A program made the translations under genes and the position numbers. Below are positions 1,284 through 49,410 of a stretch of DNA of 49,673 nucleotides, piece after piece. The stretch is from a virus. The DNA lies in IMG/VR virus record IMGVR_UViG_3300005617_000229, positions 1-49,673 of that record; one strand, 5' to 3'. The notes beneath the pieces were generated by a model. It was not told where the DNA came from, searched no databases, and was given only the letters and a program-made list of their open reading frames with translations. Position 1 is the first letter of the stretch. Each line of letters starts with the position of its first letter.

Positions 1284-1343
1284 GATCCCTTGCGCCGCTG
1301 AAACTGCGGACCTATGTTGAGAGGAAAAGAAGGGAGATTTGCT

Positions 1344-2659: not shown

Positions 2660-2935
2660 CTACTGGCAAATCCCCGCGTTCGCTTTCGGACGCACTCGCC
2701 CCTTGACCAGCTTGCAATTGCAGTCCGCATCGCAGACCGCAACGAGGTCCGCAGCCTCGCTCTCGCGCACCAATCCGGTCACCTGCCCGCAATGCTCGGA
2801 GATGCGCACCGTCAGCACCTTCTGATTGTTGCGATGGAGGGCGGAGTCGGCGTACCAAGCGGCGTAGAAACGAACGGATGCGCACGATGTCAGCATGATG
2901 AGGGTGAGGGCGAAGAGGATACGGGTGGGGGTCAT
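2660..2935 (-). CDS. small lipoprotein
   Basis: 91 residues. The N terminus is a lipoprotein signal: a short basic start, the hydrophobic stretch ILFALTLIM, then the lipobox LTSC with the modified cysteine at residue 18. The mature part of about 74 residues has four more cysteines (HCG, VCDADCNC), so it probably folds around disulfides in the cell envelope. It starts in an ATGA overlap with the Thg1-like gene and ends the operon. Phage lipoproteins often act in superinfection exclusion, which would fit, but no family was recognised. Confidence 0.75.
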   Translation of the reverse strand: MTPTRILFALTLIMLTSCASVRFYAAWYADSALHRNNQKVLTVRISEHCGQVTGLVRESEAADLVAVCDADCNCKLVKGRVRPKANAGICQ

Positions 2936-3645
2936 GTCGTCGGCTCCTTCGTTGCAATGCGTTCGGAAATGTATTCACAGCAATCTGTGAATACGGGGAT
3001 TTTGAAGTCTGGCGCCCACGACCAACGCTCAACCGGCGAGTCGGCACGCGGCTGTCGAACGATAGACCATCCGTGCTGATAGCGGGGAAGCGTCGCGGAC
3101 CACGGCGTACCAGACGCCGCCAACATTTGAAGCATCCCGTCAACCTTCTCGCCATGGAGCTGCTTCGCGGAAAACTTCGCCTGCGCGCTGCTTTGGACGC
3201 TGTTGCGGATCGCGTCCTTTTGCCGCCAGATGAAATAGTTCACGACCTCGACCGGATCAGGAATCGTGAACACTCGCGCGTCGAACACGCCACTGCGGAA
3301 GTTGAAGGCCACTGAAGCGATTGCCGCCGATACGGATGCGATCTTCTGCACATTGCCGTCAAACCACGCCTCCGTCGTGATCGAATCGAAATCAGTGAGC
3401 ACGACGCTGATTTCGTCGCTCTGAACATAGGCGAGCTTCGCGCCCTGTGCCTCAGCGACGACCGCCATTGCGGCGCGCGTCATCGCTTCCGCCATCTCGT
3501 CGTCGAACGGCTTGACAAGTCCGCGCGTGAGGGTATGGAACGCTTTGCCGTCGAGGCGGACAATCGTGTATGTGCGACGCGGCAAGAGGAACCGCGCACG
3601 GTCCTCGTACTGCGCCTTCATCCGATCGCCGAGACTGTCGTTCAC
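2932..3645 (-). CDS. Thg1-like 3'-5' nucleotidyltransferase (TLP)
   Basis: 237 residues from the GTG at 3645, which overlaps the upstream stop by 4 bases; the longer open frame upstream only shadows the lipoprotein gene. The Thg1 superfamily adds nucleotides in the 3'-5' direction to tRNA 5' ends. Eukaryotic Thg1 adds G-1 to tRNA-His; bacterial and archaeal Thg1-like proteins repair truncated tRNAs. Seen here: RLDGKAF with metal-binding Asp32, QSDEIS with Asp77 and Glu78, and WRQKDAIRNS at 140-149, the hallmark of the TLP branch, followed by AKQLHG. All catalytic residues are present, so it should be active. It lies between two lipoprotein genes in the XRE-headed operon. A natural inference is repair of tRNAs cut by host anti-phage nucleases; this is untested. 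Confidence 0.9.
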   Translation of the reverse strand: MNDSLGDRMKAQYEDRARFLLPRRTYTIVRLDGKAFHTLTRGLVKPFDDEMAEAMTRAAMAVVAEAQGAKLAYVQSDEISVVLTDFDSITTEAWFDGNVQKIASVSAAIASVAFNFRSGVFDARVFTIPDPVEVVNYFIWRQKDAIRNSVQSSAQAKFSAKQLHGEKVDGMLQMLAASGTPWSATLPRYQHGWSIVRQPRADSPVERWSWAPDFKIPVFTDCCEYISERIATKEPTT

Positions 3646-4732: not shown

Positions 4733-4947
4733 GCGTTCCGCCACTCGGCATCGCTCATAGCCGCAAGGATAATGTCTTTCAGTGCAGCACCCACAGTGAC
4801 CTTCTGCTGCTCGTTGAGCTTGTCGTACCAATCGCGCCATTCGTTGTGAAAGTTGATGTCCATCAGCGGCGCGCCATCATCGGACGCATCAACGATACGC
4901 GGCATCTCGTCTATGATTCGCAGATTCACGTCGGGTTGTATACTCAC
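4729..4947 (-). CDS. hypothetical acidic protein, 72 residues
   Basis: Starts in an ATGA overlap with the XRE gene and is therefore its direct partner. The product is acidic (IIDEMPRIVDASDDGAPLMD) with helical segments (NEWRDWYDKLNEQQ, VGAALKDIILAAM). A small acidic protein translated right after a DNA-binding regulator may be an anti-repressor or antitoxin-like partner, but that is context alone. Confidence 0.65.
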   Translation of the reverse strand: MSIQPDVNLRIIDEMPRIVDASDDGAPLMDINFHNEWRDWYDKLNEQQKVTVGAALKDIILAAMSDAEWRNA

Positions 4948-5288
4948 TTCCGCCCCCTTCCTCGCCGCGCAACGGGCTTCTTCGGATGGATCGCTTCGAA
5001 GTATCCGACGGTCTGACTCTTCTTCGCGGCGGCGGGCTTCTTCGTATGGCGGCGTACCGGCTTCGTCGTCGCAACAGCGTCATAGAACGAGCGCACCGAA
5101 ACGCGAAAGTAGGCCGTGATGAGGTAGATGTCGTATGCGCTCGGATGATACGTGCCGGTTTCCCACCGCGAGATCGTGTTTGGCGTGGTGCCCATGACGG
5201 CGGCGAAGTCGGCCTGAGTGAGATCGGCCATCATCCGGCGCTCTCGAATCATCGCGCCGATAGCCGCGTAAAAATCTTCTTCGTTCAT
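4944..5288 (-). CDS. XRE-family helix-turn-helix regulator
   Basis: 114 residues from the ATG at 5288. Residues about 10-60 form a Cro/C1-type domain: IGAMIRERRMMADLTQADFAAVMGTT, then recognition helix NTISRWETG and YLITAYFRVS. The C-terminal third is very basic (TTKPVRRHTKKPAAAKKS, RRGRGRK), which would add nonspecific DNA contact. There is no ribosome site, but a promoter lies upstream with its -10 exactly 7 bases before the ATG, so the mRNA is probably leaderless. A palindrome fills the promoter spacer and is the likely operator, suggesting autoregulation. It heads the operon reaching down to 2660, including the Thg1-like gene. Confidence 0.85.
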   Translation of the reverse strand: MNEEDFYAAIGAMIRERRMMADLTQADFAAVMGTTPNTISRWETGTYHPSAYDIYLITAYFRVSVRSFYDAVATTKPVRRHTKKPAAAKKSQTVGYFEAIHPKKPVARRGRGRK

Positions 5289-5334
5289 GTCGGAAATAGT
5301 ACATCCTTCAACAGGATGACGCAACCTATTTCCG
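5289..5334 (-). promoter_or_regulatory. promoter with spacer operator for the XRE operon
   Basis: On the - strand: TTGCGT (5324-5319), a 17-base spacer, TACTAT (5301-5296), then 7 bases and the ATG. The spacer CATCCTGTTGAAGGATG is a perfect 6+5+6 palindrome. A second perfect 9-bp inverted repeat (CGGAAATAG at 5291-5299, CTATTTCCG at 5326-5334) surrounds it and overlaps both the -10 and the stop codon of the upstream gene. The geometry fits a repressor blocking RNA polymerase, most simply the XRE protein itself. Confidence 0.75.
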
Positions 5335-6456
5335 CACCGCCCTCTTCCGCACCGGCAGCGCCTTCTTCGGCGGATCGACCGGCCCGTTGATCTCCGCGAT
5401 TGCCGCTTGAAAGGCCCGCCCACTTGCGCTCACGATCGGGTTGCGCGGAATCGCATACCCGTCACCCTCGAAGAACATGCCGGGACGGAGATAGAAGATC
5501 GCCTCAACATCGCGCTTCACAATCCGCTCCTTCGTGAATTCAAGCAGGTCCGCGTTCGGCGCGTCGATCTCGCCACACCACTCAGGGCGTCCGTTACCGC
5601 GTTCTTTCGTCACGGCCTTGAACGCTTCCATCGTCGCGTAGTGCATGCCGGTCGGATTGAACTCGCCGTAGGGGTGGTAGCTGATGATGTTATACGGCGC
5701 GTTTCCTTTTGTGAGCACAAGACAGCGACCTAGAACGCCGTCGCCATCGGCTTCGTTGCCGACATGGGTCCAGCCACCGCCGAGTACCGATGTAATGCCA
5801 TTCGAAAACGGACGTACTATTTCGGGAACGAACCGGCCAGCGATCACGTCGCCCATCCCGCCGAAGTTCTCATTGTCGTAGCGGATCGGCGGGAACGAGA
5901 ACGCATCTCCCGGCTCATTCCACGCGCCGTACAGCCCCGGCCCGTAGCGTTTCGCGAGTTGCTGCCCAACCGTGAACATGAAGTCCGCGCTGATGTGCGG
6001 CACCTTCCCCGATTCCAGGTACGGGCGCGCCGGCATCTTCTGATCGATCGCCGCCCATTGCGGATTCGTGGCCGTGTTCTGATCGAAAAAGTGGATCGTT
6101 CCGTCTCGCGCCCCGTTCCGTTCGTTCCACCAAGCGACGCCTCCGTACGACTCTGGCCTGTCGGGCGCACCAGGGGGCCACACTTCGACGAGGCCGATGT
6201 ACGCGGGCTGTCCTTCGCTGGCCCATGCCGGTGCGCCACAAGCGTCGTAATAAGGCTTGATGCCGGCGGCGCGCAGATTCCGGTCGAGCGCATCGAGAGG
6301 CCCCCAATCCCACGTCAGCGGATCAGGACCGGCGGCGCAGAGTTTCGCGAGGGCAACAGATACGCGCCAATGCGTGATACCGATGGCGCGCTCGGCTTGC
6401 AACTCGGCGAGAGTTGGATGCTCGTCGGATGTGGTGAAGCAGGCGCCGAAGATCAT
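5326..6456 (-). CDS. clan GH-A-like glycoside hydrolase
   Basis: 376 residues; the ATG at 6456 has GGAGG five bases upstream and overlaps the previous stop. The layout is that of a TIM-barrel glycosidase. YGAWNEPGD around 176-184 carries the clan GH-A signature with proposed acid/base Glu181. The HPYGEF loop (about 261-266) and EWCGEID with proposed nucleophile Glu296 sit on later strands at the usual spacing. No signal peptide is seen, and a basic tail (KKALPVRKRAVRK) ends the chain. The substrate is unknown. It lies in an early-type operon rather than with tail genes, so it is not obviously a virion depolymerase. Its stop is embedded in the XRE operator. Confidence 0.75.
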   Translation of the reverse strand: MIFGACFTTSDEHPTLAELQAERAIGITHWRVSVALAKLCAAGPDPLTWDWGPLDALDRNLRAAGIKPYYDACGAPAWASEGQPAYIGLVEVWPPGAPDRPESYGGVAWWNERNGARDGTIHFFDQNTATNPQWAAIDQKMPARPYLESGKVPHISADFMFTVGQQLAKRYGPGLYGAWNEPGDAFSFPPIRYDNENFGGMGDVIAGRFVPEIVRPFSNGITSVLGGGWTHVGNEADGDGVLGRCLVLTKGNAPYNIISYHPYGEFNPTGMHYATMEAFKAVTKERGNGRPEWCGEIDAPNADLLEFTKERIVKRDVEAIFYLRPGMFFEGDGYAIPRNPIVSASGRAFQAAIAEINGPVDPPKKALPVRKRAVRK

Positions 6457-6605
6457 CGCGCCTCCGCCACGTCGAACTGCAACCACAGCCCATCAACCCC
6501 GAGCGCGCGCAACGCCCGGTACGACGCAATGGTGGGGAACGGCTGCGGTGATGCACCTTGCGGGTATGGGACTTGGCACAGGCCGAGGAGGATCAGAGTC
6601 GTCAT
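6453..6605 (-). CDS. short protein before the glycosidase, 50 residues
   Basis: An open frame starting in an ATGA overlap with the gene before it and ending in an ATGA overlap with the glycosidase. The product has a hydrophobic start (TLILLGLCQVPYP) and then SYRALRALGVDGLWLQFDV, which reads like one beta-alpha unit of a TIM barrel. It may be a detached piece of a glycosidase-type domain or an independent small protein. Coding status rests on the tight overlaps. Confidence 0.55.
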   Translation of the reverse strand: MTTLILLGLCQVPYPQGASPQPFPTIASYRALRALGVDGLWLQFDVAEAR

Positions 6606-11137: not shown

Positions 11138-11166
11138 AACATCGGTCCCGACCGAAGCAAAGTCAA
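11138..11166 (-). promoter_or_regulatory. early leftward promoter
   Basis: TTGACT (11166-11161), 17-base spacer, GATGTT (11143-11138), followed by G. The -10 keeps the key A2 and T6 positions. It shares ACCGAwGTTG at identical spacing with the rightward promoter at 11671-11699. It should drive the operon starting at 11116. Confidence 0.7.
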
Positions 11167-11599: not shown

Positions 11600-11628
11600 A
11601 ATCTGCGTTCGCGTCGGAAGATTGTCAA
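11600..11628 (-). promoter_or_regulatory. second leftward promoter of the control region
   Basis: TTGACA (11628-11623), 17-base spacer, CAGATT (11605-11600), followed by G. The -35 is perfect; the -10 keeps A2, A4 and T6. It would transcribe the 75-residue gene at 11291-11518 with a leader of roughly 75 bases. Confidence 0.6.
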
Positions 11629-11670: not shown

Positions 11671-11699
11671 TTGACAAACTGAAGCGGCGAACCGAAGTT
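11671..11699 (+). promoter_or_regulatory. early rightward promoter, leaderless arrangement
   Basis: TTGACA (11671-11676), 17-base spacer, GAAGTT (11694-11699), then 7 bases and the ATG at 11707. With a normal start site 6-8 bases after the -10, transcription begins at or beside the ATG. It drives the rightward operon and faces the two leftward promoters. Confidence 0.7.
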
Positions 11700-12954: not shown

Positions 12955-13355
12955 GCGCGCGGACCAAGCGGCGTGACTCGCAGCCTGAGATCGGCGATGG
13001 GATCGGCGTCAACTGCGTCGGCCCGGGCAATCACCACGACGACTGCTCGGTAGCGGGAGCGCCGCAACCCCGTAACGACCAAGAAATGAAAGGCAGCCCC
13101 GTCGTTGTCACTATAACCTTGACACCGCGCGCGGCGGAGTTTTTCGGCGCATTGGTCTGCAAGATCGGCGGCTCCCCTTCTGGCCCTCGCGGTGAGATTG
13201 TCGAATCGTTCCGTCAGCAACTGATTGCGCAAGGCATCGAGTCTGCGAATGGTAGCGTGACGCCTCGTGAGTGGCGCGAATACTGGCTGGAAGAAAAGGT
13301 GCCCACGCTCGACTCACTGCTGGCCAACCGGTGGCCGCGTTGGAGTCGCAAGTGA
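12951..13355 (+). CDS. hypothetical protein upstream of the recombination genes
   Basis: 134 residues, starting in an ATGA overlap. The first 45 residues are polar with scattered cysteine and histidine (CVGPGNHHDDC). A folded part follows: beta strand VVVTITLTPRAAEFFGALV, then helices (GEIVESFRQQLIAQGIE, TPREWREYWLEEKVPTLDSLL). Its stop overlaps the YqaJ start (GTGA), so it belongs to the same translational unit. No family was recognised. Confidence 0.7.
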   Translation: MSARTKRRDSQPEIGDGIGVNCVGPGNHHDDCSVAGAPQPRNDQEMKGSPVVVTITLTPRAAEFFGALVCKIGGSPSGPRGEIVESFRQQLIAQGIESANGSVTPREWREYWLEEKVPTLDSLLANRWPRWSRK

Positions 13356-14500
13356 CCGACACGCTCGCCCCCGGCCTTCATCGCGAATCGCTGACCCGCG
13401 AGGCTTGGCTCCGTGAGCGTGGCTCGTTCGTCGGCGCGTCGGAGATCGCGTCTATCCTCGGCCTGCCGGGCGCGTACTCCACCATCGGCGGTGTGTGGGT
13501 CTCGAAGATAAACGCGAAGGAGTGCGCTGAGGCCGAAAGGCAGAGCGCCGAAGCGATGGAAGAGGCGTCCAATATCGACCCCGAGACCGCCGAGAAACTG
13601 AACCATCAATCCATCGGCCTGATCGTGGAACCCGCCATCCTCACGATGTACGAACTGCGCAATCCCTCCTTTACAGTCCGCCGCAACGGGCTGCAAATCT
13701 GGCGGCATCCCGAGTACCCCTTCATCGGCGCGACGCTCGACGCGGAAGCCGAGACGGAGTTCAAAGACAAGCGCACCGTCGAAGCGAAGAACGTCAGCAT
13801 CTTCAAGCGGCAGGAATGGGGCGCGGAAGGATCGGACGAGACGCCTGCCATCTTCGCCGCGCAGGGCGTGCAGCAGATGCTCGTGCGCGAGCACCTCGGC
13901 TACGGGACGTTCTGCGATTACCCCGTTCTCTTCGGCGGGAACGACTTCAAGATTTTCTCCGTGCCGTACGATGCGAAACTCGCGCAGCAGATCATCGACG
14001 TGCTCTCCTGGTTCTGGAACCTCGTTGAGACGCGCACTCCGCCGCCGATCGACTACTCCGGACGCGGAGCGGCGAAGCTGATGCGGCAGATTTACTCGAA
14101 GATCGTAGGCGAAACGCTCACCCTTCAGCAGGGCACGGCGACTCACGATCGCGCGCTGGATTTGATCTACACGCGCGACTACGCCGACAACGAAGCGAAG
14201 CTCTGGACGGCGCGGAAAGACGAGGCGCACGCGGAGCTGCTGTCCATTGCGGGGAATAATGCCCGCGTCGAAATCCCCGTCGTCGTCGACGGCAAAACGA
14301 AGATCATCGCCATGAACCGCAAAGAGCAGCGCGGCTACGATGTGCCCGCGCGCTTTCAAGAGCCGATGATCAAGACGACGTTCGAACCGTTCCATCTGAA
14401 AAAGCGCCGCGAGATTTTCGATGCGCTGCCGGAGCGGAAAATGACACGACACCTCAGCGATGGCGCGAAGTTGATCGAAGGAGAAACCGAAAATGAATGA
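13352..14500 (+). CDS. YqaJ-like viral recombinase / exonuclease
   Basis: 382 residues from the GTG at 13352, which overlaps the previous stop by 4 bases. YqaJ-family enzymes are lambda-exonuclease-like nucleases that resect double-stranded DNA ends for a partner annealing protein. Seen here: GASEIASILGL near residue 30, a glutamate in the helix before EPAILTMYE (about 90), ATLDAEAE with the active-site aspartate (about 130), and VEAKNV (about 145) giving the E-x-K catalytic pair. The RecT-type partner follows with an 8-base overlap, a classic phage two-gene recombination module. Confidence 0.88.
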   Translation: MTDTLAPGLHRESLTREAWLRERGSFVGASEIASILGLPGAYSTIGGVWVSKINAKECAEAERQSAEAMEEASNIDPETAEKLNHQSIGLIVEPAILTMYELRNPSFTVRRNGLQIWRHPEYPFIGATLDAEAETEFKDKRTVEAKNVSIFKRQEWGAEGSDETPAIFAAQGVQQMLVREHLGYGTFCDYPVLFGGNDFKIFSVPYDAKLAQQIIDVLSWFWNLVETRTPPPIDYSGRGAAKLMRQIYSKIVGETLTLQQGTATHDRALDLIYTRDYADNEAKLWTARKDEAHAELLSIAGNNARVEIPVVVDGKTKIIAMNRKEQRGYDVPARFQEPMIKTTFEPFHLKKRREIFDALPERKMTRHLSDGAKLIEGETENE

Positions 14501-15668
14501 GCCAACTGTCACGGCAACGGAAACCGCCGTCGCTACATCGAAGCCGAAGGCGAAAGTTGTCAGCGTTTCCGAGTACGTCAAGTCGAACACTGCCGCCATT
14601 CAGGAAGCGCTCCCAAGCATCGGCCTGACTGCGGAAGCAGTCGCCCGCACGGCGCTCTCTCAGGTCTACCGGAACCCACAGCTCCAGCTCTGCGACCATG
14701 TTTCGCTCATGCGTTCCATCATCGAAGCGGCAAGCCTCGGCCTTTCCTTTGCGCTCGGTCGTGCGTACCTCGTACCGTTCAACAACCGCGTCAAGGGCAA
14801 GGGCGGACAGCCGGATACGTGGCGGTTGGAGGCGCAGTTCATGCCCGGCTATCAGGGCCTTGTGGATCTCGTCCGGCGTAGCGCCAGTGTCAAGACAGTC
14901 ATCGCCGAGGCGGTCTACGAAGGAGACAAGTTCACCTTCAAGCGCGGACTCGACACTGACGAATTCATGCATGAGCCGCTGACTGAACCGGACGATTCGA
15001 AACTGACGCACACCTACTGCCTGATTCGCTTCAACGACGGCGGATATCAGATCGCCGTGCTGACGAAGAAACAGATTGACAAAGTGCGGGCGCGGTCGAA
15101 GTCGAAAGACAACGGGCCGTGGGTTACCGACTACGCGCGCATGGCGATCAAGACGTCGGTCAAACTCTGTACGAAACTCTGCCCCGCGTCGATCGAGCTT
15201 TCGCGCGCGATCGAGTTGGACAATCAGGCCGAGATGGGCGAACGGCAGCAACTCACGGCGGGTTCGGATTTCATGGGCGGTCAGGCGCAGATCGAAGGTG
15301 AGGTCGAGGAGCGTGAGCCGGTCACGCAGACGGTTTCGAATGCCGCCGCCGATCTCCTCAACAAGGTCAAGCCGCAAGCGGAAACAAACAAGAAGGCCAC
15401 CGCAAAGCCGCCAGTCGTCGAGGTCGTCGCGGAGTCGGTCAACCCCTCCGAACCTCCCGAGGGCGCCATGTCGATCGAATACGCGAAGGATTTGGCGAAC
15501 CGCGCGGAAGCGTTCCTGATGGCCGAAAACGATGGCAGCAAATCGAAGGCCGAGCTGGCGCTTTCGGAGCTGACGGCCGGAAAGGTTCAAACGTTCGCCG
15601 CTCTGCCGTTGTACATTTTCGACCACAACGAAATCTCCGGCAAGCTGATCGCCGCGATGGAGGAATGA
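14493..15668 (+). CDS. recT: RecT-family single-strand annealing protein
   Basis: 391 residues. The RecT core is clear: LCDHVSLMRSIIEAASLGLSFALGRAYLVPF, then AQFMPGYQGLVDLVRRS, VYEGDKF and AYCLIRF-like HTYCLIRFNDGG, followed by KKQIDKVRARSKS and WVTDYARMAIKTSVKLC. These proteins coat single-stranded DNA left by the exonuclease and pair it with homologous DNA. Residues beyond about 250 form an extended linker and a helical tail that may bind a host single-strand-binding protein. It overlaps the YqaJ gene by 8 bases. Confidence 0.92.
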   Translation: MNEPTVTATETAVATSKPKAKVVSVSEYVKSNTAAIQEALPSIGLTAEAVARTALSQVYRNPQLQLCDHVSLMRSIIEAASLGLSFALGRAYLVPFNNRVKGKGGQPDTWRLEAQFMPGYQGLVDLVRRSASVKTVIAEAVYEGDKFTFKRGLDTDEFMHEPLTEPDDSKLTHTYCLIRFNDGGYQIAVLTKKQIDKVRARSKSKDNGPWVTDYARMAIKTSVKLCTKLCPASIELSRAIELDNQAEMGERQQLTAGSDFMGGQAQIEGEVEEREPVTQTVSNAAADLLNKVKPQAETNKKATAKPPVVEVVAESVNPSEPPEGAMSIEYAKDLANRAEAFLMAENDGSKSKAELALSELTAGKVQTFAALPLYIFDHNEISGKLIAAMEE

Positions 15669-16362: not shown

Positions 16363-17220
16363 ATGACTGACATGTACAACAAGCTGTTCACAAAGATTCT
16401 CGACTCGTCAATCTGGCTGGAGTCGATGCCGACGCGCCTCGTCTGGGTAACTTTGATAGCAGCGATGGATGAGACAGGATTCTGCGCGTTCTCGGCGCCG
16501 CAGAACCTCGCAAACCGCGCCATCGTCCCTCTCGAAGATACCCTCGCTGCCATCGCCACGCTCGAAGCGCCGGACATCAACTCAGCAGACCCCGACAACG
16601 ACGGGCGGAGAATCGAGCGCGTACCCGGCGGATGGATGGTCCTCAACGCTGGCAAGTACCGCGCGATGGTCACGAAGATGATCATCAAGGAACAGACGTT
16701 GGAGAGGGTCAGGCGGCACCGGTCAAAAGGCGGTAACGCTGATGTAACACAAAGTAACGGTGCCTATGATAGTGATACTGCATCTGTTTCTGCTCTCTCT
16801 ACGGGGGGTGCAGGGGGGACGTTCGATGTCGGGTTGGCGTTCGAAGCCGTGTGGGCTGACTACCCGCGCCGCTTGGGCAAGAAAGAGGCGCTACGGCACT
16901 TCAGGGCTTCCGTGAAGACGGATGACGACCTTGCGGGCATCCGGCGCGCCTTGCAGCGCTACAAGGCCAGCGTAGCGGGTAAGGAAGAGAAGTACATCCA
17001 GCACGGCTCCAGGTGGTTCAACGAATGGCGAGACTGGCTGGATGGCGCCGAGCCGCCGCAGCCGGAGGAAGAGTCGGCAGGCTTCCCTGCTGCCAACTGC
17101 CGGTGCGGACACGCCGACTACTACCACGCCGAATTGACCGGCCTGTGCGCCATCAGGCGGGATAACCACAACGCCGAGGACTGTAAGTGCGAGCGGTTCA
17201 GTGGAGACGCAAATGCCTGA
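16363..17220 (+). CDS. phage replication-initiation-type protein
   Basis: 285 residues. The first 110 residues read like a winged-helix domain (IWLESMPTRLVWVTLIAAMD, NLANRAIVPLEDTLAAIATLE, GWMVLNAGKYR), as in phage replication proteins. A polar linker follows, then YPRRLGKKEALRHFRASV, IRRALQRYKASV, YIQHGSRWFNEWRDW, a region common in phage replication and helicase-loader proteins. The last 50 residues hold a cluster CRCGH...H...C...H...CKC that may bind zinc. With no polymerase or helicase gene in the window, it probably recruits host replication proteins. The start lacks a good ribosome site. Confidence 0.75.
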   Translation: MTDMYNKLFTKILDSSIWLESMPTRLVWVTLIAAMDETGFCAFSAPQNLANRAIVPLEDTLAAIATLEAPDINSADPDNDGRRIERVPGGWMVLNAGKYRAMVTKMIIKEQTLERVRRHRSKGGNADVTQSNGAYDSDTASVSALSTGGAGGTFDVGLAFEAVWADYPRRLGKKEALRHFRASVKTDDDLAGIRRALQRYKASVAGKEEKYIQHGSRWFNEWRDWLDGAEPPQPEEESAGFPAANCRCGHADYYHAELTGLCAIRRDNHNAEDCKCERFSGDANA

Positions 17221-17659
17221 CGAGATCGAACCGATCGTCAACGAAGAAATTCTCCCAAACCTCCCCGCGCGGCTTCGTCTCATGCGGCTCGGTCTCGGTT
17301 GGAATCAGGAAGATTTAGCGCACCACTCTGGCGTCGGCGTGAAGTCGATCTCCTCGTTCGAAAACGGATCGCGGATTTACTCGCTGAAGGTAGATCAGCT
17401 CATCAAACTTGCGACGGCATGCGGCTACGATCTCTGTCAGCTACTCACCGATCCGCTGGAAAGTTTTGGCATCAGCGCGGCAGTCCTGCAAAGCATCGTT
17501 GAGCGTGTACCGCGTCGCCAGAAGAGGAAAGAGCGCCCATTCAAGCCGGTTGACCAGCCGAAGAAGAAAAGTGCGACACCTTCGAACGTTAAGCGTGGCA
17601 TCACGATTTTCCGATCGTCGGACCATCTTGTTAGCCCGCTCGGGGATGGATGGCGATGA
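17213..17659 (+). CDS. XRE-family helix-turn-helix protein
   Basis: 148 residues from the ATG at 17213, which has GGAG six bases upstream. Residues about 15-75 are a Cro/C1-type domain (ARLRLMRLGLGWNQEDLAHHSGVGVKSISSFENG, QLIKLATACGYDLCQLL). The C-terminal half is basic and proline-rich. Lying inside the rightward operon, after the replication gene and before the nuclease, it may act as a middle regulator. It overlaps both neighbours. Confidence 0.85.
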   Translation: MPDEIEPIVNEEILPNLPARLRLMRLGLGWNQEDLAHHSGVGVKSISSFENGSRIYSLKVDQLIKLATACGYDLCQLLTDPLESFGISAAVLQSIVERVPRRQKRKERPFKPVDQPKKKSATPSNVKRGITIFRSSDHLVSPLGDGWR

Positions 17660-18266: not shown

Positions 18267-18484
18267 AATCCTCAGCCGCCGCCGATCCCAACCGTCTCCG
18301 CATCGTCGATCTGACCGCAACGTGCAAGCACTGCGCGCGGATCGAACGGGATGCGAAACTCGCTCTGGAATTGGCGGCGGCGAACTATCTACGGATGAGC
18401 GCGGAGGTTGATCGGCTAAACAGGGCGTTGCAGCGCGAGTCGTACGTGATGGATTCGAGAGAGCCGCACAGGAGGAAGGTGTGA
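18263..18484 (+). CDS. hypothetical helical protein, 73 residues
   Basis: Starts in an ATGA overlap and ends in a GTGA overlap with the methyltransferase. One CKHC pair near residue 21 is followed by a long charged helix (KLALELAAANYLRMSAEVDRL). No family was recognised. Confidence 0.6.
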   Translation: MKSSAAADPNRLRIVDLTATCKHCARIERDAKLALELAAANYLRMSAEVDRLNRALQRESYVMDSREPHRRKV

Positions 18485-19113
18485 AGCCCTACTACGAGCA
18501 CGACGGCATCACCATTTTCCACGGCGACTGCCGGGAAGTTTTGCTCTCGATTGCCGCGACCGGCGTGCTGATAACGGACCCGCCTTACGGCATGGACTAT
18601 ACCTCCGGCACCGGAGGAAGGGCTGGTCATCGGCGCGGCGAGCGTTGGGAGCCGGTTACGGGCGACGATGCGCCGTTTGACCCTTCGCATCTCCTCGGTT
18701 TCGAAACTTCGATTTTGTGGGGAGCAAACTGGTACGCGAACAAGTTGCCGCCGTCCGGCGGCTGGCTGGTATGGGACAAGACGCCAAAGGGCAGCAAACT
18801 CGGCTTCGCGGCGTCACACGCGGAACTAGCATGGACAAACCTGTGCGGCTCAATTCGCAAGTTCTCTCTTCAGTGGGGAGGCGAAGCGCGCAACGGTGAG
18901 CCGTTCTATCACCCGACGCAGAAGCCGGTCGCGCTCGCGGCGTGGATGCTCCGCGAGTTTCGGCCGGAAGCTGTAATCGATCCGTACATGGGAGCCGGTT
19001 GGATTGCGGAAGCGTGTCGCGACGCTCGCGTACCATACGTTGGAATAGAAATCGAGGAGCGCTACTGCGAGGTCGCGGCGAACCGAATGGCACAGGAGGT
19101 CATGTTCGCATGA
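18481..19113 (+). CDS. DNA methyltransferase (DPPY type)
   Basis: 210 residues from the GTG at 18481. The catalytic motif DPPYG lies near residue 33 and the AdoMet-binding motif near the C terminus (VIDPYMGAGWIAEACRD, then YVGIEIEERYCEVAANRM), an order typical of beta-class amino methyltransferases. These modify adenine N6 or cytosine N4, usually to protect phage DNA from restriction. The target-recognition region between the motifs is short, and no restriction enzyme is nearby, so it is a solitary enzyme. Its sequence specificity cannot be read. Confidence 0.9.
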   Translation: MKPYYEHDGITIFHGDCREVLLSIAATGVLITDPPYGMDYTSGTGGRAGHRRGERWEPVTGDDAPFDPSHLLGFETSILWGANWYANKLPPSGGWLVWDKTPKGSKLGFAASHAELAWTNLCGSIRKFSLQWGGEARNGEPFYHPTQKPVALAAWMLREFRPEAVIDPYMGAGWIAEACRDARVPYVGIEIEERYCEVAANRMAQEVMFA

Positions 19114-49381: not shown

Positions 49382-49410
49382 AACTTGGGCCCGAGAGGGC
49401 GGATTGTCAA
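49382..49410 (-). promoter_or_regulatory. early-type promoter, leaderless arrangement
   Basis: TTGACA (49410-49405), 17-base spacer, CAAGTT (49387-49382), 7 bases, then the ATG at 49374. It has the same layout and spacing as the rightward promoter at 11671-11699 and should drive 49374 down to 46885. Confidence 0.7.

Follow-up and report, generated by a model that had tools for sequence, protein, structure and literature searches.

A cargo gene for an XRE-type regulator with a predicted leaderless promoter and a putative spacer operator in an exchange slot of an uncultured phage

Phage morons are foreign genes that lie between conserved genes and carry their own promoter. Leaderless genes that regulate themselves are known among the C proteins of type II restriction-modification systems, where C.Csp231I, an XRE-type regulator encoded by a leaderless gene, binds CTAAG-n5-CTTAG in its own promoter (PMC4824078). 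Leaderless promoters of the TANNNT type have been described for Deinococcus-Thermus and mycobacteria, where the -10 motif is found directly before the ATG, no Shine-Dalgarno sequence is present and transcription starts at the ATG (PMC12340547; PMC3898074). Inverted repeats placed right before the start codons of selected genes are also known as the ESAS of cluster K mycobacteriophages, which are repeated through the genome, are joined to a 13-bp repeat and have been proposed to be protein-binding sites (PMC3203893).

The locus described here lies in a virus record of 49,673 bases, classed as linear and possibly incomplete, the whole of which was analyzed and is referred to as the window. Positions 5334 to 5288 of its minus strand read CGGAAATAG G TTGCGT CATCCTGTTGAAGGATG TACTAT TTCCGAC ATG. 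The stop codon TAG of the upstream gene (5328-5326) is followed by a single G and then by the -35 hexamer TTGCGT (5319..5324), whose TTG doubles as an in-frame alternative start codon. The putative operator CATCCT-GTTGA-AGGATG (5302..5318) is a perfect 6+5+6 palindrome that makes up the entire 17-bp spacer and thereby overlaps the XRE gene's own promoter. The -10 hexamer TACTAT (5296..5301) ends 7 bases before the ATG (TTCCGAC, 5289..5295), within the 5-9 bases expected of leaderless genes, and the predicted transcript start is 5289/5288. All these elements are on the minus strand, and their arrangement is exactly that of the original prediction. The same prediction had a 9-bp inverted repeat framing the site and touching the stop codon and the -10. 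This repeat does exist and is perfect (left arm CGGAAATAG, 5326..5334; right arm CTATTTCCG, 5291..5299; minus strand), but it does more than touch these elements, as its left arm contains the stop codon and its right arm overlaps four bases of the -10. Its center (5312.5) is 2.5 bp away from that of the palindrome (5310), and the two repeats therefore do not form one symmetric site. Given this offset, a left arm partly formed by the end of the upstream gene (its final codons with the stop), and the 30 inverted repeats of 9 bp (loops of 10-40) counted in the window, the outer repeat is unproven as a part of the switch and may be due to chance.

The gene behind this site (4944..5288, minus strand, ATG start) encodes a protein of 114 aa that matched PF01381 (HTH_3) over residues 14-66 with 48.2 bits against a curated cut-off of 23, in agreement with its earlier assignment as XRE. 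A structure model predicted from the single sequence had a mean pLDDT of 75, and of about 84-94 in the HTH part. The closest fold was that of C.BclI, with Z 13.2 and rmsd 1.4 over 74 residues in an alignment that begins at residue 1, and C.Esp1396I, C.AhdI, ClgR, DdrO, and P22 c2 were among the other structures matched. Since many HTH_3 proteins have this fold, the match to C.BclI shows fold and not function. The alignment from residue 1 favors ATG 5288 over TTG 5324 as the start, and the PHROG match also begins at the product of ATG 5288. Most neighboring genes have a Shine-Dalgarno sequence, and none was found 4-12 bases from this ATG. Searches for homologues of the protein retrieved a single relative in viral contigs (34% identity), none in genome contigs, and only matches below 60% identity in phage and plasmid records, so that these collections yielded no close orthologue and no homologue bearing the palindrome. 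The XRE genes of relatives (L019, L020, and L001; L017 and L018, with ambiguous frame, were left out) had no comparable spacer palindrome, and a DNA pattern search for orthologues based on the recognition helix gave no match. HipB-like operators have the half-site ATCC/GGAT, and a literature search for such an operator found nothing.

The XRE gene is like those of the C proteins (e.g., C.Csp231I, C.BclI, and C.Esp1396I) in encoding a small XRE-type protein with, according to the model, the same fold, in being leaderless (a prediction for XRE) and in having a palindrome in its own promoter, which shares with the site of C.Csp231I a center of 5 bases. On the other hand, XRE has one palindrome in place of the left and right operators (C-box) of C proteins, which suggests repression only, no restriction enzyme was recognized among its cargo genes, and the protein is about 20% identical and has an extra basic C-terminal tail. 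Because of the single site and the absence of a linked restriction gene, we have not filed it as a C protein. The phage also encodes a DNA methyltransferase (18481-19113, plus strand) at 13 kb from XRE. The palindrome is also unlike the sites of a CI-like lysogeny repressor, for which multiple operators would be expected where early promoters diverge: allowing up to 2 mismatches, the control region at 11.1-11.7 kb contained no copy. No further copy was detected anywhere in the window either, leaving a single site without a second operator nearby. While ESAS elements share the position immediately before the start codon, they differ from this palindrome, which is unique and lies inside a promoter.

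Taken alone, the promoter anatomy of the XRE site is modest evidence. Both hexamers are weak (TTGCGT and TACTAT match the consensus TTGACA/TATAAT at 3/6 and 4/6 positions), and a consensus promoter scan of the window, the total matches of which were at chance level, did not list the site. By a position-weight score using approximate E. coli weights, 101 of 99,274 window positions were as good. The combination of elements is rarer: the window has a single TTGC-N19-TANNAT, with 0.37 expected. When every candidate start was scored for a promoter immediately before it, sites emerged at 11.1-11.7 kb and ~49.4 kb that define a promoter class common to this phage and its relatives. In this class TTGAC(A) and nAnnTT flank a spacer of 17 bp, the last bases of which resemble CGGACC. 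TTGAC-N19-A-NN-TT occurs 6 times in the window against 0.79 expected, a count reached in none of 100 shuffles, and the sites are conserved in relatives. They include 11671-11699 (plus strand), 11600-11628, 11138-11166, and 49382-49410 (all minus strand), together with a conserved site with a TTGC-type -35 at 1290-1318 (plus strand). Of 18 sites of the class, a tally that includes orthologous sites repeatedly, 11 have an ATG 6-8 bases past the -10 that begins a frame of 40 codons or more, which indicates that leaderless genes are usual in this phage group. At about 21.0 kb of a related phage (G004), the start of a 56-aa XRE-like protein (L052) is likewise of the leaderless type and lies 8 bases downstream from a -10 of the class.

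The geometry of the XRE site (17-bp spacer, 7 bases, ATG) is that of the promoters of the group, and its spacer is devoid of the CGGACC that is conserved in the spacers of the class and distinguishes the other promoters of the phage. As in the leaderless promoters of Deinococcus-Thermus and mycobacteria, the -10 of XRE is just before the ATG, there is no Shine-Dalgarno sequence and the start is predicted at the ATG; unlike them, most sites of the phage group have a -35 at the proper distance, and CGGACC is conserved before the -10. These promoters of the same geometry, along with a promoter-like site in the corresponding position of the closest relative (see below), back the proposal of a promoter with a leaderless start, and we consider both quite probable for XRE.

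The surroundings of the gene point to an exchange slot. The upstream gene (5326..6456, minus strand, 376 aa), which matched no Pfam or PHROG family, has orthologues in two related phages (88% in G001 and 79% in G002), and its C-terminal end is common to an otherwise different protein of a third, G003, the closest relative (capsid protein 99% identical). This end corresponds to a left linker (5332..5381, minus strand) kept in the three related phages. Homology stops about 5332, within the outer repeat arm, and resumes at 4985, where a right linker (4944..4985, minus strand) is 41/41 identical to G003 between non-homologous flanks. The right linker supplies the last codons of XRE and the same C-terminal tail KKPVARRGRGRK to unrelated proteins encoded by other cargo genes. 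Since the genes between the conserved linkers differ among the four phages, XRE can be said to occupy an exchange slot, with the palindrome as part of the incoming piece. The constant linkers give like basic tails to unrelated proteins (KKALPVRKRAVRSK from 5332-5381 and KKPVARRGRGRK from 4944-4985), with a further variant, KKPVARRKAARR, in G001. A 50-codon ORF at 6453-6605 (minus strand) matches the N-terminus of a 366-aa protein of G003 and is apparently the stump remaining after the body of that gene was replaced. The phage encodes a RecE-like exonuclease and a RecT-like annealing protein (13271-15668, plus strand), and these could recombine the short linkers and so drive gene exchange. Searches with the capsid profile against genome contigs and with the terminase against phage records returned no match.

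At the same point of the slot, right after the left linker, G003 has TTGCAA-17-TAGGAT-6-ATG before an unrelated 69-aa gene, and with the approximate E. coli weights this site outscores every position of the window. The G001 slot shares 22 identical bases with that of G003, including the -10, before another gene with a short leader and AAGGAG; it is without a -35 and has a low promoter score. A common ancestry of the XRE leader and the G003/G001 leader was considered and rejected, as the alignment was barely above chance (p 0.04-0.37). The XRE gene is the first in a run of tightly packed genes on the same strand. It had been described as heading an eight-gene cargo operon, and the close-packed run of about eight holds, although the exact count varies with the choice of starts. 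Among the cargo genes behind XRE, the only family matched was tRNA-His guanylyltransferase (Thg1; 2935-3645, minus strand; phrog_4717, PF04446). XRE resembles a moron as a foreign gene between conserved genes with a predicted promoter of its own, and differs in that no terminator of its own was seen and in that the linker at its end also gives the C-terminal codons.

We propose that the XRE cargo gene arrived between two conserved linkers with its own 43-bp front end, which would act as a sigma-70-type promoter (TTGCGT-17-TACTAT) with a transcript starting at or next to the ATG. The spacer palindrome would be bound by an XRE dimer; once abundant, the protein would occupy the spacer and shut out RNA polymerase, keeping XRE and the cargo genes behind it at a set level by negative autoregulation. 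From the sequence and its geometry, the promoter class of the group, the structure of the slot, and the predicted HTH fold, we infer that the promoter is active, where its transcript starts, and that XRE binds to it and represses it. The position of the palindrome, its rarity in spacers and the fold of the protein make it likely that the palindrome is the XRE operator: among the 18 promoters compared, only that of XRE has a 6-bp spacer palindrome, the next best being of 5 bp. As for the complete proposal, in which an exchangeable cargo gene has a leaderless promoter of its own and represses itself through an operator in the spacer, we lean towards acceptance.

The promoter could be real and the palindrome serve another regulator of host or phage, or XRE could act elsewhere or as an activator, in which case there would be no autoregulation. 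The argument for autoregulation comes from adjacency only, and the phage has a second XRE-type regulator (17201-17659, plus strand); yet the single-copy palindrome adjoins the gene of a small HTH_3 protein that is closest in fold to self-regulating C proteins, and no operator copies precede the other phage promoters (18 promoters and the whole window), so we regard this as unlikely. Also unlikely is that palindrome and outer repeat arose by chance at a mosaic junction rich in GC, or that they form a weak terminator of the upstream gene, with XRE expressed by read-through and possibly translated from TTG 5324, which is in frame and has a weak GGA 6 bases upstream. The upstream gene is on the same strand, 37 bp from XRE, with no clear terminator between them, and therefore read-through into XRE may also occur. 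The window has one inverted repeat of 6 bp nested in another of 9 bp, with 0.22 expected, and 17% of shuffled windows have one or more; terminator-like sites are at chance number (11 against 10.9 expected). However, the site has no uninterrupted T run, the palindrome coincides with the spacer of a site that has the same geometry as the leaderless promoters of the phage, and both the fold alignment and the PHROG match start with the ATG 5288 product. A perfect arm of 6 with a loop of 3-8 is held by 0.18% of random 17-mers. The exact 17-base palindrome had 7 other matches in viral contigs, all within coding genes and therefore chance matches.

The same palindromes also give rise to a strong RNA fold across the site. 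A read-through mRNA hairpin of two stems could hide AAGGA and the start region, which would make XRE translation depend, by translational coupling, on a ribosome that has read the upstream gene as far as its stop codon in the 5' arm. The fold (-21.4 kcal/mol, z -2.2) was equaled by 4 of 200 shuffles, AAGGA is mostly paired, and the XRE start region was an outlier among 31 gene starts (z -3.75 versus -1.6 to +2.3). Nevertheless, 6% of window segments were equally stable, AAGGA, at 15 bases from the ATG, is too distant for normal use, and two slot relatives have promoter-like sequences instead of hairpins. A read-through lock by a hidden AUG was rejected, as the accessibility of the AUG was context-dependent and showed no clear drop in read-through RNA compared with the leaderless form. 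Overall, RNA control by this hairpin seems improbable. An N4-type hairpin promoter would go together with a giant gene for a virion RNA polymerase; the largest ORFs seen in this possibly incomplete record are of 768 aa. T4 genes that have their promoter within a hairpin at the start site behave somewhat like a two-level switch, in which the DNA operator would be combined with a read-through mRNA hairpin (palindrome plus outer repeat) blocking XRE translation. We deem such a switch very improbable here; if true, XRE would be made only from its own leaderless transcript, regardless of upstream transcription.

Negative autoregulation from a promoter-spacer operator, the reading that we prefer, is a circuit type already known, and XRE would be a neat example of it. 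It would mean that a cargo gene of a phage can arrive with all the control it minimally needs, with promoter, operator, and start codon in 43 bases, needing neither a ribosome-binding site nor its neighbors. The more general result is that leaderless promoters seem to be in wide use in this uncultured phage group, which swaps cargo genes between constant linkers, and the promoter class provides a testable promoter model for annotating the genomes of the group.
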